Source of the DNA: Erodium maritimum
Lineage: Eukaryota > Streptophyta > Magnoliopsida > Geraniales > Geraniaceae
Reading direction: 5' to 3'
Assembly (NCBI GenBank): GCA_963921825.1
Contig: OY997592.1
Span: 25,647,730-25,711,729 of the forward strand
DNA: 64,000 nucleotides
Shown in pieces: positions 5,808 through 42,381 of the stretch. The translations under genes were made by a program, and so were the position numbers. The notes beneath the pieces are model-generated. The model did no database searches. It saw only the letters and a list, made by a program, of their open reading frames with translations, and was not told the DNA's origin. Position 1 is the first letter of the stretch; every line of letters starts with the position of its first letter.

Positions 5808-5933
5808 TGTTTTGAATGATTATCCTACGTAGGGCGTTCATTCTCTCATGCACGATGGTGTGTACGTCAGCATCCCTCCATCAATACACACCTCTGATTC
5901 TATTGTGGAATCATTGTCCATGCTTTTAGTTGT

Positions 5934-11650: not shown

Positions 11651-11771
11651 CTTGTTGCTGTTTGTTGAACTTTTCTTGTGATTGTGATTGTGTTTGCCCG
11701 AGGTTAGTGACCCGACTTCGTGTCGGGAAGTGGTGTGGAATTTGGCTGGCTTACCTGACAGGGATCGGTAA

Positions 11772-16280: not shown

Positions 16281-16924
16281 CTTTCACCACGTCCTCTGCA
16301 CTCTTCTTCTTCTCTCTTCACTGGCTTTCCCTCTTCTTGTTCTTACCTCTTCATTCACGTGTTCTCTTTAATGACTTTCCCCTTTTCACGCAAAACACTT
16401 CACAATTTCCTCTATTTAAGCCAAACAAGTCGGGGCAATAATGTCATTTAAATTTTTATGACCCTTTACGTGACTTACACGTGGTCGACGAGTTAACAGA
16501 GCTGTTAACTTGAACATTTTTTTAAATATTTTTTAGGGTAAACTTCATCCCACTACCCTAAAAAAACTTGAGTTTCAACCCACTACCCTAACGAAACTTA
16601 GTTGCATCCCACTACCCTAACTTTCAATTTAGTGTCAATTTAGTACCCAACCCCTTACGACGTCAGATTTTGGACGGAAAAGGCACGCACGTGCCTCGCA
16701 TGTGCCACTAACTGATGCGTAAAGACTGATTTACCCTCGTCTCTCTTCAGCTTCCTTTACTGTAACACCCACAACCCTCAGTCTTCTCATTCACTCTCAG
16801 ACACAAACGAATCTCAGACAGACACGAAGACGACGAGCAAGAGTGAGGACGAAGGAGGAGGTTGCAGAGTTGTAGATTCTTGGCGCGCGTTTATCTGCAG
16901 AAGACGAACCTGGTTCTTGCTGAG

Positions 16925-19113
16925 ATGGGGAGAGTAAGTTTCCGATTCTAGGGTTTCGTATTTTATAGTTAGGGTTTTAATTTCTGAGTTTCTAGGGTTC
17001 TTTATTTGAGTAAAGGTTTCATATTTTATAGTTAGGGGTTAATTTCTGAGTTTCCTTTGAATGTGCCCTTGTTATTGCGAATGTTTGCAGAAACGTAGGG
17101 GTGTAAAAGAACCACCAAGGAGTTGTCCTGAGTCAAACCCCTTTCTTCAGGCTCCAATTTGTGTTGAAATCAATTATGGGGGAAAGTTTGTAGGAGCCGA
17201 TAATAGGTACGAAGGGGGTTCTGTTAAAGTCTTCCTTGTAAGTGAAGATGAATGCAGCCTCTTCAAGCTCACTGCCTTAGTGCATGATGCAGGACGTGAG
17301 CCCACTAGTACCCTGCATTATAAGGAAAAAAATCTAGTTAGGACTATGGAAAATGATAAGTCTGTAGCTAGATGGTTGAAGAGGTATAAAAGGTCTAGGG
17401 CAGCTAGGAAGTTGTACATAATAGATGGAGATCCACCACTACATGTGGTGTCTCCTAGTGGGGTGATTTTGGGAGGTAGTGAGGCAAAGAGTAATGGGAC
17501 AATATGCTTACAAGTCATGAAGCCAAGGGAGAGGCAGAAATTATACGAAGATGAGAATGAATATTTCTCGAGGCGTGGTCTTATTAAAATGTTAAAGTGT
17601 GGCCACAAGCTAGACAAATTCTGCATGTTGGATGGAAGGAGGATTATTCAGGAGCTACCAAGTGACAATGAGGATGGTGATTATCACGGTCGGAGGTCAT
17701 TTAGTTATTTGATGGGTATGAAAGTGTTTAATTATTTGATGATCAGTAATTACCTTGTTATGTGTATGAAATCTGTTATGTGATCACTAATATCCTTTTT
17801 TGTAGATTTAAATGATGATGAAGATGAGTACGAGGATGATGATATGGGTATGGGCATGAAATTGTAATAGATTGAGTAGGTTTGTAAGTTATTTACATGA
17901 GTTTGTTATTTGTAGGCCATGACTATGAAGAGAAGGAGGATAATGGACAAACATACAATGGCAGTGATGTTGATCATGTGGAGGATGCTGATGTTGATCA
18001 TGTGGAGGATTATGGTGATGATCATGTGGAGGATTATGGTGATGATCATGTGGAGGATGAGGATGAGGAGGACATGGTGTATGTAGACACAGACCATTGT
18101 GATGCAGAATTGGGTATGGAATTGAAACTAGACAAATTTAATTAGTAAGTATTGGAATTTGGTTGGTTCTGCCATCACTTGCCTATGTGTAGGAAATGAA
18201 GATGAGGAGGAGGAAGGACATGGACAAACAGACCATGAGGAAGCTGATTTGGGTATGGAATTGAACATTAGTTATAATTTGTGGTTTTCCTTTAATGTGT
18301 AGTTAATTTTGTACATGTTATTCATTAACCTGTTTTTGTAGAAAATGTAAATTCTCAAAGAGGCAACGATAAAGAGGATGTTGCTGAGGAACCAAAGACA
18401 AAGGGGAAGGAGCCAATGGAGTGTGAAGGCACTGGTGATGTTCCTGGGACAGAAACAGAAGGTGAAACTGACCAAATGAAGGATGACGAAGAACTGAAAT
18501 TGCAAAAGGAACGTAAGAGGAAAGGCAAGGCACCATTGGAGGATGATGTTGATGGCCATGAAGGCATACCTGAGGCTGATGATATGGGTATGAGTGATAA
18601 TGAGGCTAGTGATGATGCTAAGGGTGGTGCAATGGGCATGAATGAGACAGATGATATAGGTAATTTACTATTACTATTACTAATATTTCTGGTGATTGAC
18701 AAATGGATGCTCAAAATGTGTTGTGTGTAGGAGATGAAGATGAGAATCTGGAGGCTCGTCAATATCCAGATTGGCTGAAGATAGGGTAGTATGATAGTGA
18801 TGGGGATAGGGTTCATGGCAGCCGAGGATGGAAGGGTGCCGTGGAGGGTGAAAAAGATGCAGGGCATCACTCAGACTCTGATTTGGAGGAAATAGTGGAA
18901 GTTGAGTTAGAATCCGAGGATGAGGATGATGATCAAGTAGAAGAAGTGGATGCTACACATACGCTGGACCCCAGATGGGTAGATGGGCGTAGGGTGTGTG
19001 ACTTGGAAGATGTGAGGAAGAAGATACCAATGCGTCTAGGGGAGCTATTCAAGAATGCAAAGGCTTTCAGGAAGTTGTTCCTTGCATACGCTGTGAAGCA
19101 AAGCTGGCAGTAA
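16925..19113 (+). pseudogene. N-terminal part of a MuDR-type transposase
   Basis: A first exon (ATG at 16925, MGR, donor AGA|GTAAGT) joins in frame to an acceptor at about 17090 giving KRRGVKEPPRSCPESNPF. The long exon to about 17700 has the PB1-like start seen in plant MULE proteins (CVEINYGGKFV, RYEGGSVKVFLVSEDECS). A series of short acidic exon-like blocks follows (17806-18660). The last block (18841-19113) ends in the N-terminal DNA-binding start of MuDR transposases: LGELFKNAKAFRKLFLAYAV then KQSWQ and TAA. The right TIR begins one base after this stop. All catalytic DDE, SWIM and knuckle parts are absent, so the protein cannot be an active transposase; an in-frame stop is also present before 18790. 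Confidence 0.7.
17969..18062 (+). repeat. 24-27-bp coding repeat (DHVEDYGD)
   Basis: Four near-identical units of GATCATGTGGAGGA followed by TATGGTGAT or a variant encode DHVEDADV, DHVEDYGD, DHVEDYGD and DHVEDEDE. They form the acidic core of one exon-like block of the truncated transposase. Confidence 0.85.
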
Positions 19114-19460
19114 AGAGAAGACTGAGGGTCGTGAGTGTTACAGTAAAGGAAGCTGAAGAGAGACGAGGGTAAATCAGTCTTTACGCATCAGTTAGTGGCA
19201 CATGCGAGGCACGTGCGTGCCTTTTCCGTCCAAAATCTGACGCCGTAAGGGGTTGGGTACTAAATTGACACTAAATTCAAAGTTATGATAGTGGGATGCA
19301 ACTAAGTTTCGTTAGGGTAGTGGATTGAAACTCAAGTTTTTTAAGATAGTGGGATGAAGTTTACCCTACTTTTTATAAAATTATATACCTTTCATGTATG
19401 GAATGATGTGATAACTAAATGTTAAAAAACGTTCCGTGTAATTAATCTTCAAAAGATAAA

Positions 19461-21102
19461 GGGTTAAATATTGAAACTTACCCTTACGTTTTGGTCACGA
19501 ACACTACACTACCTATGTTTGCAAAATCATATTTGCCATACCTAAACTATTGGGCACGTGATACTGTTAGTAAAAGCTAACATCTGAAAGTATAATGATT
19601 GTTTTGCCCTTTTGTATTTGAATTAAGTTGCCTATATCATATGAATTGAAAGACTATCTTACCCTACTTTATCATTAATTTCTTAACAATTTATTAATAT
19701 TTTAATTATTTCTTTATAATAAATTTTTCATTAATTCTTTTTGAATTTTTTTATAAAACTTTGATTTCTGTATTTCTTGTTCTCTATTTTTTGTATTTAT
19801 TTTCTAGTAAATTTAATAATTATATTTGACAATTTTATATATAAAAAGTAATTTGTATTTGTTCTTTTTATTAATTTTAAAAAACAAATTGTTACGTTTT
19901 AGAAATATTTTTTTCCTTTTCATTTTGTAAGAGTGCTAGTTCTGTTATTAATTGTTTTTTTTTACTAATATTCGAATTTTTATTTATTTATTAATTTTCA
20001 TAAACAAAATAATTTATTTTTCAGTAACTTTTTTCTTTAATTTTCATTAAAAAAAATTGTGAAAGAGTTAAACAAATGTTCATAATTTCCGGCCAAACCT
20101 TCATTTTTTCCGGCCAATATTCAAAAGAGTTCAACAAAGAATAAGAGTCGGAAAATCACAACCCAAACTAAATCTGAAATTACATAAACCCAAACGACAT
20201 TTCGTTGGCGCACGTTACGAATCGAAAAACCAAAAATCACCAGAGAGTGGATGGGTTGCTCCGGTCAAGAGATGGCGAGGAACGCGAGCCTGGCTTATGC
20301 ATAGAGATTAGATTTGAACCGGGGAAGCGAGCCTCGCCGGATCTGGAACACGAGCTCCTACGAGAACTCATAACCCGAAAGAAAACACCCAAATCGAAGT
20401 TCCTCGTTTCAGATCTTTAAAACCCCCAACTTGTAACCTCGGAAATAGACGTTGTCGTTGCCGTTGGAGAAGAAGAGGACCTCCATTTTCGGGTTGTGGG
20501 TCGCCGGAGGCAGTCGTGTGCAAACGTCCACACGAAAGGGATGAAGAACTCACCGGAGGGGTTGAAGAACTCGCCGGACTGAGCTCATGCACGAGAAGAG
20601 GGCTCTGAGAGATGAAGTTGTTTGAGATGAGGAATAAAACTTGTTGAGCAAATTTTTATGCTCATCGCCGGCATCCATGCCCGTTCCTGTTAGATCCATG
20701 TGAAGAGGATGGAAGTTTGGTTCGTGTGAAAAGGAAATGGAAGATTGAGGATTGGTTTAGATAGGTAGGTTTAGATAATTATTTATTTACTTCTGTAATT
20801 ATTTTATTTATATAATTATTCTTTTTGTGTTATTTTAGTAATTGTATTTATTATTAAATGAGGACAAAATCGTAATTTTCTTTATAAATCTATAGGATTC
20901 AAATGTGTAAGGGCAAAATTGTCATTTTACTTTTCACTAAATGACACATGATATCAAATGACTAACAGAATAGCATATTTCATCCATATTTACTAACAGT
21001 ATCACGTGCCCAATAATTTAGGTATGGCAAATATGATTTTGCAAACATAAGTAGTGTAGTGTTCGTGACCAAAACGTAAGAGTAAGTTTCAATATTTAAC
21101 CC
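19461..21102. mobile_element. Non-autonomous MULE, 1,642 bp
   Basis: The TIRs of about 114 bp (19461-19574 and 20989-21102) start GGGTTAAATATTGAAACTTA and are nearly identical. They are flanked by a perfect 9-bp duplication AAAGATAAA (19452-19460 and 21103-21111). The outer interior is extremely AT-rich; 20200-20640 is GC-richer and gene-like (CGCCGGA-type codons) but has no recognised domain. The right end lies about 70 bp before the likely 5' leader of the Agenet gene. Confidence 0.92.
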
Positions 21103-21169
21103 AAAGATAAAATAGAGACGAAGGGGGGATTAGGTTAAAGTTACGTTGCAAAGGGAATGCTGAAGGAAG

Positions 21170-21390: not shown

Positions 21391-22132
21391 GTAAGTCAAT
21401 TTTAAGTTTCAAGTTTTGCTTTTTCATTACAAAGTCAGATTTAAGAAACGGAATTAGTAGATTTTAGGTTTCAAATCCCTCCCTCCCTTTCCTTTCAATT
21501 TACATCCATAAGGAAATTATGGTTTCATTCTAATTGAATTATATCCTTGCATGGCTTTTACCCTTACTGGGATCCTCGTTCTCCACTTTCATATTTTCTC
21601 AGTAAGCAACTAGGGTATACACAATCAGAACTGCTCTTTTGATATATTTTTTTTATCTATTGTCATTTCCTTGAAAATAATGCAAACATTATGTGCGTGA
21701 AGTATAATTTTCATCTCAGTTGCTTAATAATGGTTAGCAGATACACAAACTGGACATACATATGCAGCAGTAATCTCTACATAGTCAGTAAAATGCGTAT
21801 AGAACTTTTCTTGAAACCAACCTCCTCCATCACAGAATATGATCATATATGGTCACTTTGTTTCAATCATTGTTTCTTAAACCTTCCATGTGTTTTTGGT
21901 GATTAGAATTGACTTGTTTATCGATCAAATCCATAATTGCACTTGTGGGTTTTGAATTTTCATGTGTTGTGTAGGTAATTTGTAGATTAACTTGTGTGTA
22001 GTGTAGGCACTTTTAAGTTTGAATTTTGGACACAATACTACTACTAGGTGCTATTTTGCAAAAAAATAAATTTGTTTCTATTAAATTTGGAAATTTTGTT
22101 CATTACAGCAGCATATATCGTAGTCGAGCATT

Positions 22133-25100
22133 ATGGGCAAGCTTAACCTACCGTTTAAAGTTGGCGAACAAATAGAGTCAAGATCTTTTGAAAAAGGATA
22201 TCGAGGGGCATGGTTCCAATGCACGGTATACCATAATTGTTAATCCAATTGATGAGCTTTCTTTTATCAGATCTGATCGTATATCATATTTCATTTGTTT
22301 GATGATGCTTTGATTCTGCAACCTAGATATGCACATAACACTACAGATTTTATAGTCTTTTTTACCTTGTGTTATTTCAGCTTAAATGCACAATATGGTC
22401 AAAGTAGCAAATAAAACTTTTTTTTTAATAAAACGCCTTGTGAACAATTCGGGCTCAATTGTATGCATTAGCGCATGGCACATATAAGTTCTATACAAGA
22501 TGAGCTAGTGAGGGTTGGATAGTGAAGGGTTAATTACCTTTTGCACCCCTTATCTATTGGTAACACATTTTTTGTTCCCCTGCGTTTTGTAACATTCGAA
22601 AACAGTTCCTACGTTTTGGTAACCGTTGTCTGTTAATTTTTTCGACGAAACGACTGTTTTACCCCTCACTATTCAAACAACCAACAATTTTACCGTTAAA
22701 AAACATCAAAATTATAATAATTTTTCATGAAATCTTTTTTCCTTAATTATTCTTTGGGAATATTTCAATATGATACCCTGCATAACATTTATTTTCATTA
22801 CAATACCTTAGACTGTTTTCCTTGCATTATAATATCCTGGCAAACATTTATTTTCAGTTTGGTATCTAATGTTACTTTTCCGTTAACTTTCCATCCGAAA
22901 AGTGTAAAAAGTCAAAAATACCCCTCAATAACAATCTAATTTTCAAACACATGCCATTGCTTTAAAAAAAATCAGTTTTATTTTAAAATTTACAATTTAT
23001 ATTTTAAAAATCATTTTTTTTAATTATTTTGTTGTTATTTATTTTTACAATCAGTTTTTTTTTAAATATGTTTTCATTTAAAAAAACTCAGTTTTTAGTT
23101 TTAAAGAATCAGTTTTTATTTCTATAGAAATCTGTTTTTATATTTAAAAATAGTATTATCTTCAAAAAAATTCTTTTAATTTTCTTTCTTTTTTAAATTT
23201 TTTTTTTTTGTGTTCTTCAATCTCACTATTGCTGAAACTCAACTTCACCATTTCCTCTAACACCATGGGAAGAAAATGCTAGAGCTCATACACAAAAAAT
23301 CAAGGGATAGTTGTCCAAAACTACCCTAAAGTTTCGTCCACAAACGAGTTGATGCACAAAGTTTTATCCACGCTGTGTAGCTACCCTGAAGTTTTGGCCA
23401 CGCTTTTGTGGATAAATTTAATTTTTCCCACGCTTTTGTGGGTGCATTGAAGTTTTGTCCACGCTTCTATTCAATCCGGGAAGCCAGCACAGAGGCCCAA
23501 GACCATCATTCTGAACATCCCTATTACGTCAAAACTGAAAAAGTAGTGGACAAAACTTCAGGGTAGCCACATAGCGAGGACGAAACTTTGTGCATCAATC
23601 GTTTGTGGACGAAACTTTAGGGTAGTTTTGGGCAATTATCCCAAAAATCAAAGCCTAGAAACACATTTCATATATTGCAATTGAGGACATGTTTCAAATC
23701 TGGCTATCAGCTCCTCCTATTATCATTTGAACACACATCACCGATTCATCTGTCCCTCAAAAAAATTACAACGGTTCAATTTTTCTAACCCCCTCCCTTC
23801 TTTCCCCCTCGCTCGCTCCCTATGCCCTGACTAACCCGCCATCATGGAGGATCTGAAGATACCCGCCGACGCTCTCGTGGTGGAGGAACTGGTTGTGGGG
23901 GTGAAGAAGGAGGATCCACGATCTGGCTCCGAGAAGAGGGGTTGAGAATGGGGGAGATGGGGTATTGAAAGGCGCGACTTTATGAGGGATGAGGAAGGTG
24001 GCGGAGATTGTGCTGGTGTGTGGTGAAGGAGTGAAAGAGATGGAGAATAGATATGGTTGAGTTGATGGTGGTGTGCGGTGAAGATAAGAACAGAAAAGGG
24101 AGAGAGGAAATGAAAAGGGAAGAAGAGAAGGAAATTTAGGGTTTCAAAAGACCAAGGGGTAAATTCGTCATTTTTCAAAAAAATTAGGTCATGTGCTTTG
24201 CAGATGACCATTTTCCGTTAAAAAATGGACGGAAAATTAACATTAGGTATGAAATTGAAAATATAAACGGTAGGTATAAATTGAAAATAAATGTTTCTCA
24301 GAGTATTATAATGCTAGAAAAACAGACTAGGGTATTATAGTGAAATAAATGTTCTGCAGGATATTAAAATGAAATTTTCTCTTATTCTTATTTATTTAGT
24401 CAACTTATTCCTTAATTAATTAAAATTTGTGTGTTTCTTAATTAGGCTTTTTCGTTGTTTGTTCAGTACTCAAACTCTCAAAATCTCAAAATCCAGCAAG
24501 TTCAGCTTCTTCCTTCAAACCTACAAGAATCTGAAACCCACTTCGAACCTCATAACATCTTAAGCTCGTCTTGTTCATCAATCTGGGCTGATGCTAGATA
24601 ACAAAACCCCATAAAACCAATCCACCATTACCATGAAGGATGGATCAATAGGTCCACCGATCTGGCTCAACCCAGCACAATCACCACAAAAAAAATCTAC
24701 GACCACGATCTACACAAACCCTAAATCGACATACGCTCCCTACCGTCATCCACGATGTTGTAGCCGATCTCTCTGGTCTGAAATCGATTTTAGATCTAAA
24801 GTCGAGAGGAAGAGAGGGAGACGGTCGAACGAGAAAAAGATCGGGAGAGCGATCGAGCTCCGGCGTCACTGGAGAGACGAGCTCCATCCGTGCATTGTTT
24901 TGAACGACGCTCGAAGCTCAAATCGCTTGAGAAGAACACCCACACCGGACAAGGTGGTCTCTCATGATCGACTCCGATCAAGGTCTCATCCCGCTGTGTT
25001 TCGTGGTCCCTGGAGAACTCGAGAGATGAAAAAGATGAAATGGTGGAGAAGGTTTAGCAATTTACTTAACAAGTTGCAATGAAACTGGTTACTAGCAATC

Positions 25101-28100
25101 TCAACAGAAACTTGTATTTCTTTAGAGTTGTTAGGTTTTATTATTCTATTTTTTGTATATTTATTTTTTGTTTTATTCATTATTTTCTTATTTTTGAATA
25201 ATTAATTTATTATCAAAAGGATAACCTCGTCATTTAGAAAAAAAATTAAAGTTTCAATTATTATAACGGATTTTTTTGGAATATTCCATCCAATTTGACG
25301 GAATATTCTAAAATTTACCCGAAAACGACAATTATCAATACACAAGGACTGTTTTTGAACGTTACAAAACACAGGGGTAATTAACCCAATAGTGAAATAC
25401 GACTAAGTTCATAGTCCACGACACAAATGGTGAACCTAACCTTGCGTCCTCTTACTAGCTAATATTCCTGTTCATATGGGATAAACTATTTTCCTATGAT
25501 CCAAGAGAATAAAAGATAGGGATAATTCCATTTTAGTACCCTAAAACTTTCGGATTTCGTTTTTAGTACCCTAAATGTTTTTTGTGCCACTTCGGTATCC
25601 TAAATCTTTGATAATTCCACTTTAGTACCCAACGACTTTCCATCCAATGCTGTTAACTTTTCATCCAATGAACATAAAATGTCCAAAATACCCCTCATGT
25701 TACATCAATTTTTCAAAAATTTGCCATTGTCCAAAATACCATTTATTAAATCTTTTTTATTATTTTATGAAATTATTTATTTAATTCTTTCTTATTTATT
25801 TAATTCATATATTTTTCAAATATTCATATAATTTTTTTTAAAAAAAACATTTTTATTTTTTAAAAAATTCGATTTTTGTTTAAAAATCAGCTTTTATTTT
25901 TTTTAAATTCAGTTTTTATTTCAAAAACCAGTCTTACAATTCAGTTTTTATTATAAAAAACAAGTTTATTTTTTCACAATGCTACGAACATCAATTTTTT
26001 TTTCATCCAAAGCTTATTCAGCTTTTTCATTTTTCATCAAATCTATGAACAGGAACTGTACAAATTGCAAAATTATGCAAAATTGAAACAACCCAACAAA
26101 TTACAAAACTTAAGAAAATACAACAAAATTAAGAACACAGAACATGACTTTATCCTTCATTTCTTCTCAGCAGCCATTCAGACCTTAAATTAAGAACACA
26201 AAATCATATTGAAATAAAAAAAATACAAAGAATCCCTTAAACTTCAACAGATTAAGCTTAAAATCGCAACACATCCAACGTAAATCCGAAGTAAAAATAT
26301 AAACAATTCCTACAAATCCAGACCCTTGTTCAGGAGCTCCCTAATTTCTACCAAAAAAAGACCCACAGTAATGAAATCAACCCAAAAAATAACTACGAGA
26401 TCAAACTTGGTAGGGTTTCATGCCAGGCGATGCCGCTGGTTCGACGTGGTAGGGTTCCATCTCCGGTGAGGGAGAACGACGGTTGATGGCGGAGGAATAG
26501 CACAGACCGAGGGAGAATGACGGCCTGGTCGGGGTTCACGGCTGCAGATCTCTGCGAATCTTCTTCCACGGCGAGGCTCCAACGGAGGAGTCACCAGATC
26601 TGCAATGGTGGCGGCTCCATGCTCCAGATTTGTGTGAGAGCTGGAGCTCTGAGGTTGTGGACGCGCTTCAACCACACGAGCTCGCCGCTGTCTCCGCACC
26701 ACGAGCTCGCCGCCGCCAATACCTCAGCCACGAGAGAAGAAGAGAGAAGCAAGGAGGTGTGAGAGTGATTAGGTTTTGAGAGTTCAGATGTAAAATTAGG
26801 GTTTTAATGTGCTTAAGGATAGTTTTGGTATTATCACAACAGACAGGGTCATGTGCCAAGCACATGCCCATTTTCCATCCAAAAATGGATGGAAAGTTAA
26901 CGGTGGGTACTAAAGTGGAATAAATGAAGTTTTAGGGTACTGATATGGCACAAAAAAGAGTTAGGGTACTAAAAACGAAATCCGAAAGTTTTAGGGTACT
27001 AAAATGGAATTATCCCTAAAAGATACATTAGATACATTTTTACATGCATCATTTCGTACTTCTAGTTAATATGTTTGATATAGATTCAAGGGATAATTTC
27101 ACTTTAATACCCTGTCAAATATTTAATTACATTTTGATACCCTGACATAAATTTTTTGCACTTTCATATCTAAACCAAACATTTAATTTCACTTTAGTAT
27201 GAAAAAAGTTAAAAAGACCATAATACCCCTAACTATTGCTCAAATTTTCAAACTCATGCCATTGAACCCAGAACTTAAAAATAAGTGAAAAGACAATAAT
27301 ACCCTCCATTGTTAGGGTATTAAAATGAAAATTTCACTATTTTTAAAATAAAATCAATTGTTCTTTATAAATTCAGTTTTTTTTTTATGAAAATTATTTT
27401 TATTTTCAAAAAATCATATTTTAATTTAAAAAATACATAAAAATTAAATTAATAAATAATAAATAAACAAATAAATATATACCTAAACCCCATTTTTTTA
27501 TATATACCATTAATCTGTTCGGCTTCAAAACCAAGAAGATCATCATCTTCAAAACCAAAATAAGAACACTATTAGATGTTGTGGCGAGAGGAGGAGAAGA
27601 CGCCGTCAGTGTGTCGGTGGGCTCAACCATAGCTTCGTCGTCGCCGGAGAGTGAAGAATTGGACCAGATCTAAACGGTCGATAGGTCTCGATCTGGGATG
27701 CTACTTCGACTTCGACTCGAGTTCCTCTGGGTTTCGTATTCACAAAGCTCGTCACCGCTCATCCTCGTTTGCTTTGTATGCCGGATCTAATCTTTTTTCG
27801 GACTGGGCTCGATGGTGGTCGACCGTTGGAGATAGGCTAGTCGAGGAAGAAGGCAAGACAGGACCATCGAGACTGGGGAGGTAATGAGCTTGAATCTGTT
27901 CATCCCGTTCATGCTTCGCCAGATCTGAATTCTATGACGCTTCTCTACATTTGAAAGCCATCGGCATCCTCCAGATTTGACTAGCAATGGCTTTAATTGT
28001 TCCTAGGGGTCTTGGGCTTTATTGTGGGTACTAAATAAGAACATTTGGTTACTCAATCTGGGTGTGGTTTTCGAATCTTGGTAAATAAATATGTGCGCAA

Positions 28101-31100
28101 ACATTTTTGGGTTTAATTTAGTGATTTTTATGGATTTATGTTTTTTCTTACGAGAACTATCCTTGAAAAGAAGCACTTAATTTTTTGGGACTCCATCATC
28201 GCTGGCTTTGAAGCCAGACCTCCATTTATTCTGTTGCGTTAAATCACCCACACAAACTTTCATCTTATTTTTTTGTTCTGTACCTCTTTGCTGATAATAG
28301 GGTTGGGGGTTTCTGGCATTGATGATAATCTGGGTAAAAAATGAGGAGAGAGACGAAGATGAGGAGGGAGACGAAGATGAGGAGGAGAGAGAAAATCTGG
28401 ATAGAGAAATGAAAAAAAATGATAAAATGAAAAAAAAAACAAATATAATAAAATATTAATTAAATTAATGAAACTGATTTTTATGTATTTTTTAAATTAA
28501 AATATAAAATTTTGAAAATAAAAATAATTTTCATAAATAAAAACTGAATTTATAAAAAATAGTGAAATTTTCATTTTAATACCCTAATAATGGAGGGTAT
28601 TATTGTCTTTTCACTTGTTTTTAAGTTATGAGTTCAATGGCATGAGTTTGAAAATTTGAGTAATAGTTAGGAGTATTATGGTCTTTTTAACTTTTTCCAT
28701 CCAAACTAACAGAAAGTTAACGGTTGGGTGCCAAAGTGAAATTAAATGTTTGGTTTAGGTATGAAAGTGCACAAAATTTATGCCAGGGTATCAAAGTGAA
28801 ATTAAATGTGTGGCAGGGTATTAAAGTGAAATTTTCCCTAGATTCAATACCATTTCATTTCTTATTGGTAAGTAAATCTTATGTATCTTTGTTTGCAAGA
28901 GCACAAGAGTGTTCATTTCGTTTAGGAGAGGATGCGCTAGGTGTTATGCGTACTGAGTAGTATTACATCCAAAATTTATCTTAATGGATGATGCTTGGTA
29001 TTGCTTCTAATAGTATTGCCAATGCGCATATATTGAAGTTGATATATTTATGTTGGAATCAGGTCACCTTGTTTGGATGACATAACTTTCGTGAACTTGA
29101 TGTTATCTCCATATTTCTCATCAGATAAAGGGGCATAAGAAGACCAAAGGTTCCTTGAAATATTTATTGGAGTACTGTCTCTTCCCAGAGGAAGGTGAGT
29201 AACTATTTTTTTGTTTTATGCATTCTCTATTGTTTTCCTTAGAGATTTCTTTGTTTTAACCTTGATCTCTACCTTGATTTGTTATCATTAAGTTACATAT
29301 TACAGTAGTATACAATACATTACCTGATGCTACATTGATTATGTGAATTATGGAATTACACATATGTTACACCATTCGTTCAGACAATTTGTACCATCAA
29401 CTTTTTCCTCAATTCTTTTCTAAATCAAATCTTGACTAGATGACACTAATGATGCATTTTAGTTTATGCACGATTAAAATTTTAGGAGTGTTAACTGCAT
29501 ATTAGTTATTAGAGCATAGAGTTACTGCCGCATTATTGCAGTATTTTAGGAGATCATGTACTATATAGTTTAATTAAGAATTTGACTTGTTACCAATGCG
29601 ATGTGTCCTACGTTTTTATTTCGAAATGTAGACTCGCTTGTATCTTGTCTCATGTGCATGACCATATCGATGGTCATGCGTAGTTCATTTTTGACTTTTA
29701 ATAAAAGGAAAAGTTCTCTGGAATGGTTATTGTTGTTTCCCACATACTGTCCCAGTGCTGAAATGTATGGTTATTGTGGTATATAACTTTCTCTCTGTTT
29801 ATAGTTAGAAGAAATATGTGGAACAATGCCTTTTATTTTATTTTTCAGTTGTAGTCATATTGATAACGGCAAAACATTCTCACTTTTTGTTGTAAAGTAA
29901 AGTTTTTTTTTGTTTTGTTTTGCAGAAGTAACTCCAGTGGAAGTATATCAAAAGCCCTCGGCTAATAGCAAGTCAAAGAAACAGTTGATGATGCGCCCTG
30001 CCTTCCCACCTATACATCGAGAAAGTCAAATGCCTGACCCTATTACTATTTCAGATGTGGTAGTCATTGTTGATGATGTCTGGAAGGTTGGGGACTTGGT
30101 AGATTGGTTTGCCGATGATTGCTACTGGTCTGGGACTATAACTGAAATATTGGAGAACAACATGGTTCAGGTAAATACATTTTGGACTTGCTGTTGTTCT
30201 TTAACTTTAACTTGTTATGAATGGGTCGTATGCATGGTTCTAAATATCCTGAGATCTCCATGATATCAAGGAAAAATAAGGCCACTGATACCGATACCTA
30301 AAAACGGTGACAAATCGCGGTCAACGCACCGAGTCAACTCGATCAACACGCTGAAAATGAGATAAAAAAAATATTTTTAACCATTTACTCTTTTTTTATT
30401 TATTGAAATTTGAAATGAATTTGTCTTTATCCTTATCTTCTTGTAAAACCTTCCTCTTTCACTTAGCATTAATTGGTTGTGTTGTCCTAATCTTTTCCTT
30501 TCCCTTTACTTCATTGCAAAACCCCTATCCCTATATTTTATTGCATTAGAAAGACAATAATAACCTTGGTAGTAACAAAATAAATGACACCAACCTTTCA
30601 CTTAATGATAATATTTACTAGTCATTACTAATAGAAAGGGATAATTGTCAAAACATGCACTTATGTTTCGTCCACAAACGAAATAGTGCACAATGTTTTG
30701 TCCACGTCGTCTGACTACCCTTATAAATCGTCCACGCACTTCTGTTAGAAAAGTGTAACAGCAGAACCTGAATTGACAATTTTGCCCTTTTGGTTTGAAA
30801 TTCAAAAATAAGAATTTCGTCCAAAAAAATGAGTGACTGAGGATTGTTAGGGAAATTTCGTCCAAAAAAAATTTCAGACACAAGCACATCATGGCACGTG
30901 AGGCTACAAATTCGAATATTCTGTTAATTTTACTGACAGAAGTGTGTGGACGATTCGTAAGGGTAGCCAGACGACGTGGACGATACATAAGTGCATGTTT
31001 TGACAATTATCCCTAATAGAAAATAATAGTATTTGTATGTATTATATCATAAGTATTTACTAGCCATTACTGGTTTATTTTTATACTAATCAATTTATTA

Positions 31101-34100: not shown

Positions 34101-36371
34101 GTTGTCTTTCCGCATGCTTATATCCTGTCTCTATTTCAGGTTTCAGATATCATTTTTCTACTCCTTATCTTCCCTTGTTAATTTATTCACTTTGTGGTTA
34201 TAGGATAAAGAAAATCAGCGTCCTTGTGCTCGGTTAATCAGGCCAATGAGTACAGGTATAGTAGTTGCACTAATCTTTTTTTCAGTTCTTATCATTCAAA
34301 GATATGTTAATGTTGGCTGCATTTTGTACATTGTGAAGGGGCTGACATTTAAAAAGTATCTTATTTTCTATTTATGTTTCTTTATCTTCACGTAACTAAA
34401 CTCTAGATATAAATTCACTTGATACTCGATGGTTGTGTGTTTCTTCTTCTTCTTCCCCTGAGCTGCGGCGGCTATCCATCTCCCTCAACTTCAGAACTCC
34501 GCTGTTGACAACCTACTTGTCTCTGACTCGGCCGAAGCCATCTCCTCCCTATTACTCAAGCTCAACCTCTCCCACCTTGTATGTACCCACCTCTCCCTCA
34601 ACCTCTCTAGCAACGAGCGCTGCCCTGTCTCCATCGGCCTCAACCTCTTCGACGAGCCCGCCATCCTTTACAACCCCCCTCCGTTCATTTGGTTGAAAAT
34701 GTCACCGACGTCGATCTGTACTTGTTCTCGAGGCTCCTCCATGTGACTTTATTTTTAAGTTTCTCAGAAATAATAAGTTGAAAAAAAGAAATAGAGAGAC
34801 GATACGGCTGCAAAAACTAAGATAAGCGTGGAATAAATAAAGATTGTTGTCTTCTTGGTACAAAAGACAAAGGGTTAATTGCCAAAAGTTACTATTATGT
34901 ATTGTTCACGTGCAAAAAACTATTGTATGTATTGTCCATGTGTATAAACTGCCCTATCTTTTGACTATGGTTGTCTATTAGTTTTTTCGATGAAACTACT
35001 ACCCTTATGTATTCTCCACATGCAAGAACTACCCTTATGTCTGCGCCCCTAATTTTCCATCCATTTTAACAGAATATTTCAAAATTTGTCAGTAAACGAC
35101 CTTGGTCAAAAGATAGGGTAGTTTTTCACACGTGGACAACGCATAAGGTAGTTTTAAGGCATTAACCCAAAAAATAAATACATGGAAACCAATACTATGT
35201 AAAAAAAAGGTGGGAAGGCGAAGAGGTGCAAAGGGGAAGAGTGAAAAAGAAGTATAATTTAGGTAGTTCGTCAAAGACATGCATATTTTTTCAAGTCTTA
35301 ATCACCTTTAGCATCCCTTATGTATTGGTAATAAGATGAACCAGATCATGTTTTATGAACCAATTGTGCTGCTAATTTGTTTTGATATTGGGATGAACTA
35401 TTTGGGGTTTGCCTGGTTGTGCTAAATGAATTTTATCCTTAAATACTATCATTAATAGTTATTAGGCCATAACATCTCCCTCCTGCTTGTGGTTCCTTAT
35501 ATTTTTATTCTGTGAAGTATGAAGAGGGATTGTTTTTCTCTCTTTTTTATGGTTTCCTAATCAGGTAAACTCTTGTAACGAATTACTTATAAGTTACTGC
35601 ATTCTTTAGCTAATTTGGATCTGCATTTTGTTGGTGTAATGCTGGTATTCATTTGCTTAGCTGATTAAAAGATGAAGCTTCTTGACTGTAATGGGGTGAG
35701 GTTTTGTGCTCAAATTGATGGTCCGTGTTGTGGATGTAGGAAGGAAAGACATTAAGGCTACAACCAGGGATTCAGTTTCTTTATGTGCTGGCATATCGGC
35801 AGGCTCATTACCATGTCAGGAGAGATCAGAACAAATGGGAAAGAGACCTAGGAGCATAATTGATTCCAAGGAGAAGGAAAAAAGTGTGGATTTGGAGGTG
35901 GGTACTGGCATTGGAAACAGTGGTTTCGTTGTTTCTGCTCCGATGGCAAAGAGATCTCGGAGCGTGACTGAGTCTAAGAAAGAAAAAGCTGATAGAAGTG
36001 TGCATTCTATAGTTGGTATGGATATTGGTAAAGCAACTTGCTCCCATACTATTTCAAGTTCATACATTGGAGATGGTTCAGGTGAAATGATAGGATCTGT
36101 TATTGAGAAGGACCAATGTTTAAAGAAGACAGAAATCAGTGGAGCTAGAGCTGAGAAAAAACAATGTACCTTACGACCCAAGGAACCCATCGTTCTCAAT
36201 TCCATGTACTCTGATTCGTTGGAAGCTGCAATTATTGACTTGGAGGAACTTGCAAATCGAGTGAAGTGGCTCAAGGGTATTCTGCACTTTGGGGTGCCAT
36301 TGCCCACTCCTGCGCAGCCTCAGCCTGAATGGAAATTTTTGGAGCACCGTGGATCGTCCACTCCAAGATAG
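22133..36371 (+). CDS. Tandem Agenet-domain (plant Tudor-like) protein, six coding exons
   Basis: Join 22133-22225, 29125-29194, 29926-30170, 33625-33741, 34204-34255 and 35740-36371: 1,209 nt, 402 residues, every junction GT-AG and in phase. Agenet 1 (about residues 8-62) starts FKVGEQIESRSF and GYRGAWFQCT and continues across intron 1 into IKGHKKTKG and YLLEYCLFPEE. Agenet 2 (about 107-173) has VWKVGDLVDWFADDCYWSG, then LPPPPAGEGESD and LRPSLDWCEELGWTVPHP. The C-terminal half is basic and low complexity with KRPRS and KRSRS patches (possible nuclear signals), and ends with a helix, LEELANRVKWLKGIL, and WKFLEHRGSSTPR, as in plant Tudor-like proteins. Agenet domains are Tudor-fold modules that in characterised plant proteins bind histone tails or act in chromatin and RNA contexts; the ligand here is unknown. 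Introns are swollen by transposons but exons look intact. Confidence 0.88.
22756..24381. mobile_element. Nested MULE-like element, 1,626 bp
   Basis: Inverted arms of about 150 bp share modules such as ATACCCTGCATAACATTTATT and GTTTTCCTTGCATTATAATA, each a variant of a 30-bp repeat, followed inward by TTTTCCGT. The flanking 9-mers TTATTCTTT (left) and TTATTCTTA (right) match at 8 of 9. The interior at 23823-24130 is gene-like on the minus strand (Ser/Pro-rich open frame) without a recognised family. It carries the 339-bp mini-MULE 23304-23642. Confidence 0.8.
23304..23642. mobile_element. Mini-MULE, 339 bp, third nesting level
   Basis: Ends GGGATAGTTGTCCAAAACTA and its inverse, with TIRs of about 110 bp containing repeated CGTCCAC and TACCCTAAAGTTT modules. 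A perfect 9-bp duplication AAAAATCAA flanks it (23295-23303 and 23643-23651). It belongs to the same family as 30638-31013 and 42031-42381. It has no coding capacity. Confidence 0.92.
25519..27016. mobile_element. Non-autonomous MULE, 1,498 bp (intron 1)
   Basis: TIRs of about 155 bp begin GGGATAATTCCATTTTAGTA and contain three to four degenerate TTTAGTACCCTAAA modules, then ACTTTCCATCCAA. A perfect 9-bp duplication TAAAAGATA flanks it (25510-25518 and 27017-27025). The GC-richer interior at 26400-26730 resembles coding sequence on either strand, but no family is recognised. Confidence 0.93.
27090..28838. mobile_element. Non-autonomous MULE, 1,749 bp, long TIRs (intron 1)
   Basis: TIRs of about 280 bp start GGGATAATTTCACTTTAATA / GGGAAAATTTCACTTTAATA and again consist of roughly 30-bp modules around ATACCCTG, then a TTTCCATCC motif and shared unique sequence. 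A perfect 9-bp duplication TAGATTCAA flanks it (27081-27089 and 28839-28847). The interior at 27590-28060 is gene-like and GC-richer. Confidence 0.93.
30638..31013. mobile_element. Mini-MULE, 376 bp, inside the hAT-like element
   Basis: TIRs start GGGATAATTGTCAAAACATG and contain CGTCCACAAACGAAATAGTG and ACCCTTA modules. A perfect 9-bp duplication TAATAGAAA flanks it (30629-30637 and 31014-31022). Same family as 23304-23642 and 42031-42381. Confidence 0.93.
31143..31545. mobile_element. Hairpin MITE, apparently one and a half copies
   Basis: The left arm AAAAACCACCCTTATCGTGC has two inverted partners, at about 31399-31430 and at about 31510-31535. This suggests a complete hairpin copy (about 31143-31432) followed by a partial second copy. 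The core at 31265-31375 is a strong palindrome around GCTGATAGTTTAGTACAAA. AT dinucleotide runs flank both sides, so no target duplication can be assigned. Confidence 0.6.
32674..32910 (+). repeat. Fragment of a dispersed repeat, related to 38630-41800
   Basis: This block, starting GGGTTACTTGCTAAAAACTA and including CTTCTGTTAAAATAATGAAC and repeated TATATGTTTTG(A/C)CCAC modules, matches the sequence on both sides of the copia insertion at 38723-41422. Only one end is recognisable. Confidence 0.6.
34463..34746 (+). pseudogene. Coding-like fragment in intron 5, not part of the Agenet frame
   Basis: A GC-rich, intron-free stretch reads openly as AAAIHLPQLQNSAVDNLLV and SDSAEAISSLLLKLNLSHLV, then CPVSIGLNLFDEPAILY. 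After one frame change near 34682 it continues as VHLVENVTDVDLYLFSRLLH. Composition and codon use differ sharply from the surrounding AT-rich intron, so this looks like a decayed retro-inserted or captured exon. The family was not recognised. Confidence 0.45.
34872..35168. mobile_element. Small MULE-like TIR element, 297 bp (intron 5)
   Basis: Termini GGGTTAATTGCCAAAAGTTA and, inverted, GGGTTAATGCCTTAAAACTA, with TIRs of about 80 bp containing TGTCCA(C/T)GTG modules, then CCATCCATTTTAACAG. The flanking 9-mers AAAGACAAA and AAAAAATAA match at only 6 of 9, so the insertion is old or the boundary slightly different. Confidence 0.6.
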
Positions 36372-37751
36372 TGTAAATAGGACGATCACATTGTTGTCGT
36401 GTTGTTTTTGTCATTAAAATACGATGTACGAATGAAGATCCTTATTGATTAGCCCAATGTCAAGCGCGCGAAACGTATCTTTGGAGATCAATTAATATAA
36501 TATGCTTTTATTAAATGGAAAGAACTGTAAAAAGCTTTCAGCTATGTTGAGTATACAGCGTGTTTGTTCATCTTGTTTGGGCCAATTTCTTGCTCATGCG
36601 GATTTCTCCTGCATCCCTATTTACATAGCCCCACGTCTATCATTTAAGTGTAAGGACATCTGTAGTCCTTTAGAGAAAATATGTTTTTTTTTTTTATCAG
36701 CAAATTATTTTTATAGAAGAACCAAGTTTCCAAAATGGAAACAGGGTCAAGGGCGAACCCTCGTTACTAAAATATGTTTCTTTTGTAGTCTGATCAATAC
36801 AATTTCAGTTGCAGTTCATAAGCCTCAGGCTAGAATGTTATTTCTGGATTTGAAAAAAATTGAGCATAGTTAAAATTACATTGCACTCGAAGGAAAACAC
36901 ATTACATTGATAACTACTGTACAACAATTGAAATGGATGAAATTAGAAAAACTATAATATAATGGGAAATAATCAATCGTCGCTCCAAATATTGTTGATA
37001 TGTGTTCGATGAGGTCTTCTTTCAATATGTTATGAGCTTGATGATTCTTCATTCTGTCATTATTGAATCTTGGTTCGGATTTTTCATCCTAATTTTTTTT
37101 TTCTCACGAAACAGTGTTGCGGGTGATGGGTTCATGGTTTGATAAAACAACATTTATACTTCAGAGATGGATTTATGAAGCTATTTTCGATTGCACATTC
37201 CATTTATCGCTTGGAAAAGTTCGCCATTAACTTGAAGAGAAAAATTTAGATCAACAATTTGAGAATGAAAGAGTAAAATAAATAGTTTGTTTTTTTATGT
37301 TGAAACATACCTCTATTTATACTAATTTACTCCTAATAACCTCTAAAATTTGTCATAAATTTTGATTTTTCCAACTTTCATTCGGATAATTTCAAAAGTC
37401 AATTATTGGTCAATGGAAAAATTATTGTTGCATCCGATGCTTTCCAACGACGCTATTCATCACGTTGTAACCATAACACTGACAAAATCGACGTGTCCAC
37501 GACTATTCTGTCGGCATTTAGAGAACGCCAATGCTGCAAAAACGCCGCTTATTGCGGATACTATAAGGAGAGTTAAAAAAAAATCATGTATTCTTTTTCG
37601 TTGAATTTCAGACTATTTATTTTAAATGACAAAATTACCCTTGAAGTTTTAAATCTGATTTTTTGACTTAATCCTATCCTATGGTCTCTCACATATTCAG
37701 TCTCATATCTCTTCCATCTTCAACCTCTCTTTTTTTTTTAATAGGACAATT
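36372..37751. other. 3' flank of the Agenet gene and spacer
   Basis: Contains the probable 3' UTR (to about 36520), a T-tract at about 36686-36699 followed by ATCAGCAAATTA that could be a minus-strand retroposon tail, and otherwise AT-rich sequence without a supported gene. Confidence 0.4.
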
Positions 37752-38467
37752 TTTTTTTTTATAAAACCTCCATTTCAAAGCATGAAATAAGAGGGAAGCA
37801 ACAACCAACACTTACAAAAGATGAACCAACACAAGGTGAAGTACCAACAAACTAAATAATTACAAGATAGAGAGCAAAAACAAAATTCAGCAAGGGATAT
37901 AACTGAATTGATGAGGGTGTGATTGAGATTATGAGATGAATCCGGAGTTGAGACTGCAGCAAAGCCAATCAGGAGCTTTAACCAAGTGCTGAGGGATCAA
38001 ATGAGCTTGTGATCTATGTTATGAATGTGTTTTTAATCTTGAACAAGAGAGTTAAGTCCCAGAGAAGTAATACTGCAGGAGAGAAATGTTGCAGATCCTC
38101 CCTTGAGACAATACAGAAAGGGCTGCAACTGAAATATGAGCTTGAGATGAGGAACCTGAAACAAAAGAGCCCTGCAAGATAAGAAGCAAAGCAGTTCTAA
38201 GCAGGTCTGAAGGAGAAGACCAAACTCAAAAAAGCCCAGCAAGGGGAGAACAAGGGCAAGGGCAGACCAAACACTCAAACTTAGGAAAAAACTACCCTCA
38301 CAAGAAAGACAGCAAGAAGGACCCCCACACCAAGGCCTGAGAGGCCAACCTATAGTTAAAACCCAATGAACCTTACCACCACTCCCCAAAACACCACAGA
38401 TAATCTCCTCGACCGAGTTCACCTCCTCAAGAAGACCTTCGATATGTTCCAATCCTTTTTGACCCAT
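37752..38467 (-). pseudogene. Probable LINE 3' end (minus strand)
   Basis: Reading leftward, a GC-richer block with an open frame (38467-38033, no recognised domain) passes into TTCATGCTTTGAAATGGAGG and then a poly(A)-like run (T-run at 37751-37762 on the plus strand, preceded by ATAAAA). This layout fits the 3' terminus of a non-LTR retrotransposon, but no reverse-transcriptase or RNase H motif is left to prove it. Confidence 0.35.
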
Positions 38468-38722
38468 TATCTATAAATCTCTAACATTCGTTGATTATCC
38501 TATATCACAGTCCATTCATGTTAGCCGGCCTTCTTATTGCCACATCTTCGTCGTTCGTTCTCTTCGAGATTATAAATCTTGTGATGTATTTAGGCAAAGG
38601 ATGCATTATGGTTAAGGAGTCTTTGAATAAGGTTAATTGCTAAAAACTACATGTTTTTCTTACTTATTAAAAACTATATTGAGTTTAAGAGTGAACAAAC
38701 ACATACAATACGTCTTGCCATC

Positions 38723-41422
38723 TGTTAGATATACTTATCTGTTAATATTTTGTAATTCAAATATGATGTATATCTTGTATTTGAAACAAGATTAATGTGT
38801 ATTTAACCAATTGGGCATCAATGAGAATGACAGGAAACCTATTCCAACATGGTATCAGAGCAACGGAAAAGAGTTCGATAACTCGTCATTTCATCGATTT
38901 TGTGCATCTACAAGGATCTTTTTTCGTTTCTCGTGTCCCCACACATCATCTCAAAATGGTCGCGCTGAGCGTAAAATCCGAGCAATAAATAATTTGGTTC
39001 GTACTTTACTAGTTCACGCATCTTTACCACCTTCTTTCTGGCATCATTCTCTTCATATGTCTACGTATTTGCATAACATTCGTCCCTCTAAATTGCTTAA
39101 TTTTTCTTCTCCAACTCTATTTCTTTATAATCGAACACCGACTTATTGTCATCTTCGCGTGTTTGGATGTCTTTGTTACCCACTTCTTCCCTCCACTACA
39201 ATTCACAAGTTACAATCTCGCTCAACACCGTGTGTCTTTCTTGGATTTCCAGTACAACACCGAGGGTACAAATGCTTTGATCTTCAACATAAAAAGATCA
39301 TTACTTGTAGACATGTTATTTTTGATGAAACGGTATTCCCGTTCTCTTCTTTGTCTAACCCATCGCAGGATGCTTATTCATTTTTGGCACTTGATCGTCA
39401 CATTTGCTCCGTCTTTCCTTGGCTGACCAGCAAGTTGGCGTTTCCAATCCACCAGCAGATGTTCCCACTCCCAACCAAGTCAGCCCTTCTGGCACGGCCA
39501 GCTCATTTGTCCCGACCCAGTCCACCAACCACGTCGGCTCTCCAGTTCCTACCTCACCCGACCAACCCGGATCCTCCTCTTCACGGACATGCCCTTCTTC
39601 ACCTCCAGAACATCACAACACACCACCTTTCTCCTCGGCTCCAGCACCTACCCCTTCTCGTACAATCCATCCCATGACAACAAGAGGCCGAGCAGGTAAT
39701 GTTAAACCTCGTACCCTTTTTAATCTTCATACCTCTCTTGACCCATCTCCTATCCCAAAAAATCTCATACTCGCCTTAGCTGATCCCCATTAGAAACTAG
39801 CAATGTTTGACGAGTTTGATGCTTTAATTAAAAATAAGACCTGGGAATTAGTTCCTTGTCCTCCTGACACTAATGTGTTTCGGTCTATGTGGGTTTTTCG
39901 TCATAAAAGGTGTTCTGACGGTTCTTTTGAGCGTTATAAAGCTCGTCTTGTAGGTGATGGTCGTTCTCAGCAGATTGGCGTTGATTGTGAAGAAAATTTT
40001 AGCTCGGTCGTGAAGCCGGCTACTATTCGCACTGTTCTTAGTCTTGCCGTTTCTCAGTCATGGCCTATTCATCAGTTGGACGTCAAGAACGCTTTTCTTC
40101 ACGACAATCTCCAAGAAACGGTCTACATGCATCAGCCCATTGGTTTTCGGAGCAAAACTCATCCTGATCATGTTTGTCTGCTGAAACGATCACTTTATGG
40201 GCTCAAGCAAGCTCCCTGGGCCTGGTATCAGCGATTTACAGATTTTGTATCTACTATTGGCTTTGCTCATAGTCAATCTGATCATTCATTATTTATATAT
40301 CGTCGTGGCTATGATATTGCGTTTTTGTTGTTATATGTGGACGACATCATATTGACGACTTAGAGTCATGATCTTCGACTCTCTCTTATGGCCTCGCTGA
40401 GCTCGGAATTCGCTATGAAGGACCTTGGCCCGTTATCATTTTTTTGGGTATTGCAATCACCCGACATACGGGTGGGATGTTCTTATCTCAAAAGAAGTAC
40501 ACTGAGGAGATTATTCGTCATGCCGGCATGAGTTCTTGCTCCCCATCCGCGACACCGGTCGATACAAAGGGAAAGGTCAGTGGTACCGTCGGCGCTCCAT
40601 TTGCTGACCCGACTCTTTATCGCAGTCTTTCCGGTGCCCTACAGTACCTCACGTTTACTCGTCCGTATATCTCCTATGCCGTTCAGCAAGTGTGTCTTCA
40701 CATGCATGACCCTCGAGACTCGCATATGGGAGCGCTAAAGCGCATCATTCGCTACCTGCAAGGGACTCTTCACTTGGGACTCCATTTATATTCTTCGCGG
40801 ATATCTGAGTTGGTGTCGTATACTGATGCTGATTGGGCCGGTTGTCCAGACACTTGCAAGTCCACCTCAGGTTATTGCATTTTTCTGAGTGATAATCTCG
40901 TTTCTTGGTCGTCCAAGCGTCAGCCTACCATCTTGCGTTCTAGCACTGAAGCAGAGTACATGGGAGTTGCTAATGTTGTATCTGAATCTTGCTGGCTCCG
41001 TAATCTTTTATTGGAACTCCATTGTCCTTTATCTCGGACCACATTGGTCTATTGTGACAATGTTAGTGCCATCTATCTAGCCGGTAATCCAGTGCAACAT
41101 CAGCGAACGAAACATATTGAACTCGACATCCCTTTCGTCAGGGAAAAGGTTGCCAAAGGACATGTTCGGGTTCTTCATGTTCCATCTCGGTCCCAAGTTG
41201 CAGACATCTTTACCAAGGGGCTCCCTTAAGTCCTCTTCACTGATTTCAGGACCAGTCTGAACGTTCTACCTCCTCCCGCTCAGACTGAGGGGGTGTGTTA
41301 GATTTACTTATCTGTTAATATTTTGTAATTCAAATATGATGTATATCTTGTATTTGAAACAAGATTAACGTGTATTTAACCAATTGGGCATCAATGAGAA
41401 TGACAGGAAACCCATTCCAACA
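38723..41422 (+). mobile_element. Ty1/copia retrotransposon, internally deleted, 2,700 bp
   Basis: Two 127-bp LTRs (38723-38849 and 41296-41422) beginning TGTTAGAT and ending ATTCCAACA differ at three positions by eye. A perfect 5-bp duplication CCATC flanks the element (38718-38722 and 41423-41427). The primer-binding site TGGTATCAGAGC follows the 5' LTR directly and a purine tract (AGACTGAGGGGGTG) precedes the 3' LTR. Gag, protease and the N-terminal part of integrase are missing. Confidence 0.95.
38870..41229 (+). pseudogene. Copia integrase, reverse transcriptase and RNase H, broken
   Basis: The frame resumes inside integrase (NGKEFDNSSFHRFC, then NGRAERKIRAINNLVRTLL and the C-terminal VFGCLCYPLLP). 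After a variable region and frame change near 39420, reverse transcriptase starts about 39803 (MWVFRHKRCSDGSFERYKAR, LDVKNAFLHDNLQETVYM, LYGLKQAPWAWYQRF, LLLYVDDIILTT). A TAG at 40361-40363 and a frame shift in a T-run near 40440 follow. RNase H (40444-41229) is intact in sequence: YTDADWAG, STEAEYMG, CDNVSAIYLAGNP, RTKHIELD and the VADIFTKGLP end. The YVDD catalytic motif is preserved, but stops, frame shifts and the lost 5' third make it non-autonomous. Confidence 0.92.
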
Positions 41423-42030
41423 CCATCGTCTTCTGTTAAAATAATGAACAAAATATTCTGTTGTGTTAAGTATTGAGTCATATGTTTGTCTATATTACTT
41501 TTCAAGGCTATATGTTTTGACCAAAATAAGTTTTCGTGTTATATGTTTTGACCATAATATTTTTCAACGTTATACGTATTGTCCACATAATTGTTTTTTT
41601 TTTATCGGCGAAAGCATAATTAAATTAACCTCAATTCCGAGGTGGAAAAGGTTACAAAAAAGACACAATCCCACTACAGATTGCGAGAAAATAATTGTTG
41701 CAGTGGTTAACAAAATTATCATTATTTTAGAAGAAGGCAGTAGTTAATAGCTTATGGTATGTTTTTGTCTACTCTTAAACTTAATGTGGCTTTTAGCAGG
41801 TAGACAAAACATGATGTAAATTTGAAAAAAAAAAATAACCCTTTTAAGTATATGAAATAGTGTTTGTTCGATGGATTCAGTTTTTGAGCATGTTGAGATG
41901 TTCTATTTTATAGTGAAGGAATATATCGGTTGTGAGTTGCTTTAAGTTGTGCTTGTTAGAAAATGTGTTAAGGTGAAGCGGGGTATATATTGGTGTGTGA
42001 GCTCTTTTTAGAAGTGGGTGGTTATTTCTT

Positions 42031-42381
42031 GGGATAATTGTCAAAACATGCATTAAAGTTTCGTCCACAAATGAAATAGTGCACAATGTTTCGTCTACGT
42101 TGTGTGGCTACCCTAAAGTTTCGTCCACAAAATGAAATAGTGCACAACGTTTCGTCCACGCTGTGTGGCTACCCTAAAGTTTCGTCCACAAATGAAATAG
42201 TGCACAACGTTTCGTCCACGTTGTGTGGCTACTCTAAAGTAATTGGCTGATTTAGGTTTCATAAGTAATTTTACTAACAAATGTTCGTGGACGAAACTTT
42301 AGTGTAGTCACACAACGTGGACGAAACATTGTGCACTATTTCATTTGTGGACGAATTAATGCATGTTTTGACAATTATCCC
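42031..42381. mobile_element. Mini-MULE, 351 bp, with triplicated arm
   Basis: Ends GGGATAATTGTCAAAACATG and its inverse, with a perfect 9-bp duplication TTATTTCTT (42022-42030 and 42382-42390). Same family as 23304-23642 and 30638-31013. Its left arm carries three tandem copies of a 60-bp module while the right arm has one. Confidence 0.95.
42055..42235 (+). repeat. 60-bp module repeated three times in a mini-MULE TIR
   Basis: Copies 42055-42114, 42115-42175 and 42176-42235 each begin AAAGTTTCGTCCACAAA and end at TGTGGCTACYCT, differing at a few positions. The opposite TIR contains a single matching module. Confidence 0.92.

Follow-up and report, generated by a model that had tools for sequence, protein, structure and literature searches.

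How do the transposases of Mutator-like elements (MULEs) recognise their ends, when these vary between families? To our knowledge this is poorly understood, and the question is raised by a 64,000-nucleotide stretch of Erodium maritimum DNA (the window, C5:25647730-25711729, in a genome searched as 763 Mb in 40 contigs). A first-pass annotation had seen at least ten elements in the interval 16536..42381 with GGG...CCC ends and 9-bp target-site duplications (TSDs), the larger ones having terminal inverted repeats (TIRs) built of ~30-bp modules with an ACCCT core and a common inner motif; it proposed a transposase-binding array and, possibly, a distinct plant MULE clade. As an observation this is borne out, and in a stronger form than stated: the modules make up a lattice phase-locked to the element tip, which is also present in autonomous parents. 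The window elements are probably (at about 0.62) non-autonomous MULEs mobilised by MuDR-type transposases, with the TIR acting as a ruler, an ordered array of putative transposase-binding sites.

A lattice of 30-bp modules counted from the tip

A strict scan of the whole window (GGG...CCC pair, TIR at least 15/20, TSD at least 8/9, element of 120-5,000 bp) returned seven elements, all inside the interval 16536..42381, and none in eight Markov shuffles. With the TSD length set to 7, 8, 10 or 11, none was returned from the whole window. The TSD is perfect in six of the seven, the very six that the first-pass annotation had named, and 8/9 in E1 (Table 1). A relaxed scan adds E3 (TSD 8/9; alignment score 13 vs a best of 11.5 in 5 shuffles). 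Ends and TSD together are therefore firm for seven elements and weak for an eighth, and the remaining two of the claimed ten, E4 and E10, are decayed, with ends placed by eye and, at the right of E4, GAG rather than GGG. E3 contains E4, which contains E5. As is usual for MULEs, the TIR arms are long (114-234 nt in E1, E2, E6 and E7; 96% complementary in E1) and the TSD is 9 bp, at 8-9/9 in the seven window elements and perfect in three autonomous parents of E1.

The tip, GGGWTAA, is followed by up to four modules of ~30 bp, typically CA-N6/7-TACCC, often with GGAYGGAA and CAYGTG after them. Across families that are otherwise unlike, TACCC-like cores start at distances of 19, 49-50, 78-79 and 108-109 from the tip. 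The period was recovered without any motif by Tandem Repeats Finder, 10 of whose 89 rows for the window have a period of 29-32; eight of these fall in E0, E1, E5, E6, E7 and E9 (E0, outside the annotated interval, was found through its ~30-bp period), and those at 32828 and 41480 sit in related pieces whose ends could not be fixed. Ungapped identity between families peaks at 0.338 at offset 0 and reaches 0.320 and 0.321 at +30 and −30, over a background of ~0.275 with minor rises near offsets 10 and 35.

Sixteen representative ends, amounting to about 11 groups (four come from copies of the E1 lineage; E5, E8 and E9 are mutually related), fill 43 of 64 lattice slots, vs 2.9±1.6 in shuffles (maximum 9 in 1,000); when the lattice is shifted 2-10 bases down or 2-19 up, at most 11 slots are filled. 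Core identity among these ends is 0.457 vs 0.332 for non-core positions. The claim that families of unlike sequence share one architecture is upheld by these figures, as is the sharing of modules between families above chance, by which the annotation had asked to be judged.

In five diverged lineages (L041 left out) conservation is 0.942 in the cores vs 0.792 elsewhere, and no other shift among 122 circular ones gives a value as high. In ten module sets whose cores were positioned manually, the 8-base stretch ahead of the core is 0.579 identical within a TIR (49 pairs) vs 0.429 between families (581 pairs) and 0.445 between families at the same module number; 0 of 2,000 permutations reach the within-TIR excess. 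The modules of one TIR change together, and cores are kept while spacers turn over.

The inner motif fared less well. GGAYGGAA / TTTCCRTCC is present in E1, E3R, E4, E6, E7R and E10R and is not obvious by eye in E2, E5, E8 or E9; the motif is thus common to part of the window elements only, and the idea of a universal one was dropped.

Genome-wide, the pattern GGGATAATTN{4,14}TACCCTN{14,34}TACCCT has 1,030 matches and its reversed control 0, and GGGTTAAN{4,16}TACCCTN{14,34}TACC has 1,644 vs 38 in the control. Positions and lengths refer to the first 100 matches listed for each pattern, which for the first pattern are all on one contig. Of those, 93 are 54 long, with by eye a core at 19 and a spacing of 30, and three that are 53 long seem to have lost an entire module; these matches are not independent, because most come from two or three abundant families. 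For the second pattern 70 of the listed matches are 53 long and 15 are 52 long (85 of the expected length). Letters were printed for 38 of the 100, and in the 13 copied out as distinct the first core is at 18-19 in 13/13 and the second at 47-50 in 11/13; outside the 13, one first core is at 12 and one second core at 40. Another 200 kb of sequence, fetched around MULE-domain matches (L009-L028), contains 528 loose tip matches, of which 6, 4 and 5 have a core at 19, 49 and 79; the mean for a position is 0.77, and positions 5 and 23 are also raised (7 and 5 cases).

Autonomous relatives and their second gene

A genome query with E1, for which 40 of 876 candidates were scored, found copies matching its first 2,574-2,576 bases. 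Three of the elements recovered, L029, L030 and L031 (6,767, 6,764 and 6,702 bp), have perfect TSDs and the same modular TIRs as E1. E1 is therefore a deletion derivative. The transposase of L030 has PF03108, PF10551 (the DDE domain of MULE transposases) and SWIM, the last being found in the C-terminal pieces of L030, L053 and L054. The transposase of the E1 parent is of the ordinary MuDR type; with this, with a layout matching that of Abermu in the available part of its description (PMC9168764) and with an inner motif that is not universal, the suggested distinct clade is not established.

Among 27 E1-lineage ends, listed with a lenient set of core words, the cores of 17 fall exactly at 19/49/78/109, those of two more do so after correction of a start placed one base early, and the others show a one-base shift, a lost core or, in L041, two lost modules. 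GGAYGGAA is at 137 in 18 of the 27. The 17 include L037-L040, whose branch has an identity of only about two thirds with E1. The right TIR of E1 itself is partly decayed, with cores at 48/108.

Four further lineages were chosen from a transposase search by protein identity only (60%, 50-51%, 44% and 39%), and the lattice is present in three of the four: the C8 element, L053 and L054. The autonomous partners found carry the modular array, which is in favour of the first-pass annotation, for which a partner with ordinary Mutator TIRs would have been a refutation. Cores of the C8 element are at 19/49/78/108, and its first 120 bases are, ungapped, 84% identical to the left end of E6 and 81% to the right, vs 42-54% to four other ends, which marks it as the parent family of E6. 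(A genome search with the E6 end gave no recognisable parent among the 40 of 1,368 candidates listed.) L054 has TACTC at 79, which is outside the word list and so uncounted. TIR arms are 92% identical in L053 and 97% in L054, and not degenerate or absent as in VANDAL elements.

Other candidates were set aside. The top PF10551 matches, L009-L021, were read by eye as FAR1/FRS-type host genes, and the TIR-like repeats beside L013 and L015, first taken for those of parents, belong to unrelated short elements. L022-L028 showed no TIR pair within the 10 kb fetched; six of them (L022-L025, L027 and L028) form a repeated MULE-domain family with the common protein start GGNNVPEAVAYE. In the 39% lineage a lone left-end candidate lacked a partner end, and no full element is claimed for it.

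A GRF-zinc-finger-like exon lies downstream of the transposase, and on the strand opposite to it, in L029-L031, L053, L054 and a remnant in the window; the C8 element has a partial one, cut by the end of the fetched piece. Pfam E-values for the exon, scanned in L030, L053, L054 and the window, range from 4e-5 to 0.086, and none of the four matches reaches the curated cut-off; in L054 the next exon has weak coiled-coil matches. The window remnant has SWIM at 12711-13619, and over 165-230 residues its transposase pieces share 37-39% identity with the transposases of the parents. Its transposase (8300-14500, +) appears split by a ~3.5-kb insert, about 9183-12648, which looks like a solo long terminal repeat and contains a 58-bp tandem array at 11085-11644.

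What may read the array

The motif that maize MURA binds in Mu TIRs is ~32 bp long (PMC3310237), and a 30-bp module therefore corresponds to about one footprint. Each module would be one site for the element's own transposase, several copies of which would line up along the array from the tip inward, select the true end, pair the two ends and place the cut at the GGG tip. A change in transposase specificity would then lead to joint rewriting of the modules of a TIR with spacing unchanged. Ordered transposase sites would be expected to look like this: an array locked to the tip, with cores that are conserved, a spacing that hardly varies and linkers that change jointly. The binding array proposed in the first-pass annotation, whose interpretation is partly supported here, fits this anatomy.

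Several points weigh against such a ruler. Its filling is uneven: L036 fills 0 slots, E3L, E8R and E9L one each, and E5L, E10R and L054L two each. For some families the better-preserved end was chosen, and to the core word list, which is loose, TACAC was added after L053 was seen; both choices favour the lattice, though the shuffles were given the same list. A module spacing of 29-31 is no whole number of 10.5-bp turns. The genome-wide matches listed come mostly from few abundant families, and in two fetched pieces of the 39% lineage no TIR pair was found. L041 has lost two modules yet exists as a genomic copy; with three listed E6-type ends that seem to be without one module, this suggests that four modules may not be needed.

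GRF fingers are single-strand DNA binders, which argues against an unlikely alternative, that the modules serve as an array for some accessory protein which the element encodes (for instance the GRF-finger protein), with a VANC-like anti-silencing role, the transposase reading the tip only. It would be in keeping with the GRF-finger-like exon in all four lattice-bearing autonomous lineages examined (C8 partial) and in the window remnant, and VANC motif arrays change together (PMC5735166) as the modules do here. However, VANC21 motifs are found in non-coding sequence, including that of introns (PMC5735166), and the lattice is fixed almost to the base to the cut site, a precision that silencing control would not need.

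Another reading is history only. A tandem duplication that arose long ago in an ancestral TIR and was simply inherited, with no present function, would give related elements a shared register through homology and make the modules within one TIR resemble each other, as they do. This is quite improbable, however, as cores persist and spacers turn over between transposases only 44-51% identical, spacing survives indel pressure, and the linkers before the cores change together. The telobox CCCTAAA is the site of telomere-repeat-binding proteins. That the cores are sites for such host factors, or promoter elements for transcription from the TIR, is very improbable: E6 cores do read TACCCTAAA, and MuDR TIRs have promoters (PMC3310237), but the shared part is TACCC followed by TA, TG, TT or A according to family, not CCCTAAA, and short gene-less elements such as E9 keep or even expand the array.

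Known systems and neighbouring features

Abermu (Hvu_Abermu; PMC9168764), which occurs in monocots and dicots, is alike by description only, in its GGG...CCC tips, 9-bp TSD, TIR of 138-145 bp, MURA-like transposase and TA-rich targets. Its type II has an opposite-strand open reading frame (ORF) between the transposase and the 3′ TIR, the place of the GRF-finger-like exon here; the Abermu ORF is of unclear function. The available text mentions no modular TIR or 30-bp ruler. In Muta1/Muta5 of Aedes aegypti (PMC5225508) the long TIR is likewise a tip motif plus tandem short repeats, whose number varies in non-autonomous copies; those tested moved, less often than a construct with full ends. The general layout is alike, but Muta1/Muta5 has nine copies of 12-15 bp and a FLYWCH finger, whereas here there are at most four copies of ~30 bp, phase-locked across families, with PF03108 and SWIM. 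Plant MULEs with repeated TIR material are known in the tandem-TIR MULEs of Ferguson and Jiang (PMC3310237), which duplicate whole TIRs, and in tomato PM-ZIBP, with repeated motifs inside one TIR (PMC3310237); here the repeat is a 29-32-bp unit within one TIR. In VANDAL/VANC (PMC5735166, PMC10398659) too, short motifs form arrays that evolve in concert and are recognised by a protein that coevolves with them; there, however, this protein acts against silencing, the TIRs are degenerate, and the motifs lie in non-coding sequence, that of introns included. Maize MuDR/Mu is alike by description in its 9-bp TSD, long TIR, DDE MULE domain, convergent second gene and ~32-bp MURA-binding motif (PMC3310237, PMC9168764).

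As far as the available parts of these papers go, modular MULE TIRs and the layout of GGG/CCC tips, 9-bp TSD and convergent ORF were already known. The 30-bp tip-locked ruler appears new on a limited search of open-licence literature (figures excluded), which found no description of it; six DNA strings had no match in open-licence papers.

Table 1. Elements, relatives and neighbouring features (window positions unless a locus is named; cores as distances from the tip)
Feature	Position	Strand	TSD	Cores and remarks
E0	5931..7863	.		Outside the annotated interval; right end 7863, cores 19/50/79; left end truncated
E1	16536..19366	+	TATTTTTTA/TACTTTTTA	Deletion derivative of ~6.7-kb autonomous MULE
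E1 left TIR	16554..16649	+		Four cores 19/49/78/109 of the element, then GGACGGAA at 137
E2	19461..21102	.	AAAGATAAA, perfect	Left cores 19/50/79
E3	22527..25387	.	GATAGTGAA/AATAGTGAA	TIRs decayed; single slot filled, at 18
E4, in E3	22756..24381	.	TTATTCTTT/TTATTCTTA	Left cores 19/49/78/108
E5, in E4	23304..23642	.	AAAAATCAA, perfect	Cores 19/79
E6	25519..27016	.	TAAAAGATA, perfect	Cores 19/49/78-79/108
E7	27090..28838	.	TAGATTCAA, perfect	Right cores 19/49/78/109; left end partly decayed
E8	30638..31013	.	TAATAGAAA, perfect	Left core 79, right core 49 only
E9	42031..42381	.	TTATTTCTT, perfect	Expanded 30/60-bp array; left core 79 (and 140)
E10	34872..35168	.	Poor	Decayed; right cores 19/49
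Tandem Repeats Finder rows, period 29-32	7761 (outside the interval), 16546, 19282, 23359, 26905, 27094, 28732, 32828, 41480, 42055			
Remnant of two-gene MULE, same general kind	8300..15937	+		Transposase pieces and GRF-finger-like exon (-)
GRF-finger-like exons	15937-15800; L030:6219-6434; L053:6617-6495; L054:7085-6873	-		
C8 element, 60% lineage, 6.4 kb	C8:46631310-46637729		TTTTTTTAT/TTTTTTTTT, low complexity	TIR 20/20
L053, 50-51% lineage	L053:1023-6986		8/9	TACAC at 19, then cores 50/79/109
L054, 44% lineage	L054:1182-7300		Perfect	Cores 19 and 50
Putative host multi-exon gene	22120-36375	+		Open stretches about 22130, 29925, 33620, 35736
Related GGTTAATTGC/GGGTTACTTGC element ends	32675-32900; 38630-41830			31-32-bp arrays
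Further inverted-repeat element	31144-31530			Arms 31189-31254 / 31445-31510; AT-microsatellite setting
Long ORFs, read by eye as Copia-type	48139-52095	-		

E3-E8 and E10 sit between open stretches of what looks like a host gene, in which the stretch at 29925 has no Pfam match. The ends at 38630-41830 are split by a remnant read as Copia-type (ORFs 38796-41229).

A ruler common to families with dissimilar spacers offers base-exact sites and spacings to mutate. The tip with cores at 19 and ~49 is a simple annotation signature for MULE ends, and the ruler is a means of matching non-autonomous families to parent elements, as for E1 and E6. More tentatively, at something short of even odds, a whole MuDR-type branch of plant MULEs may read its ends by a fixed 30-bp ruler, a transposase multimer sitting on four sites phased from the tip; families would then diverge by joint rewriting of their modules at unchanged spacing, and one genome would contain many transposition systems, each private to its own family.

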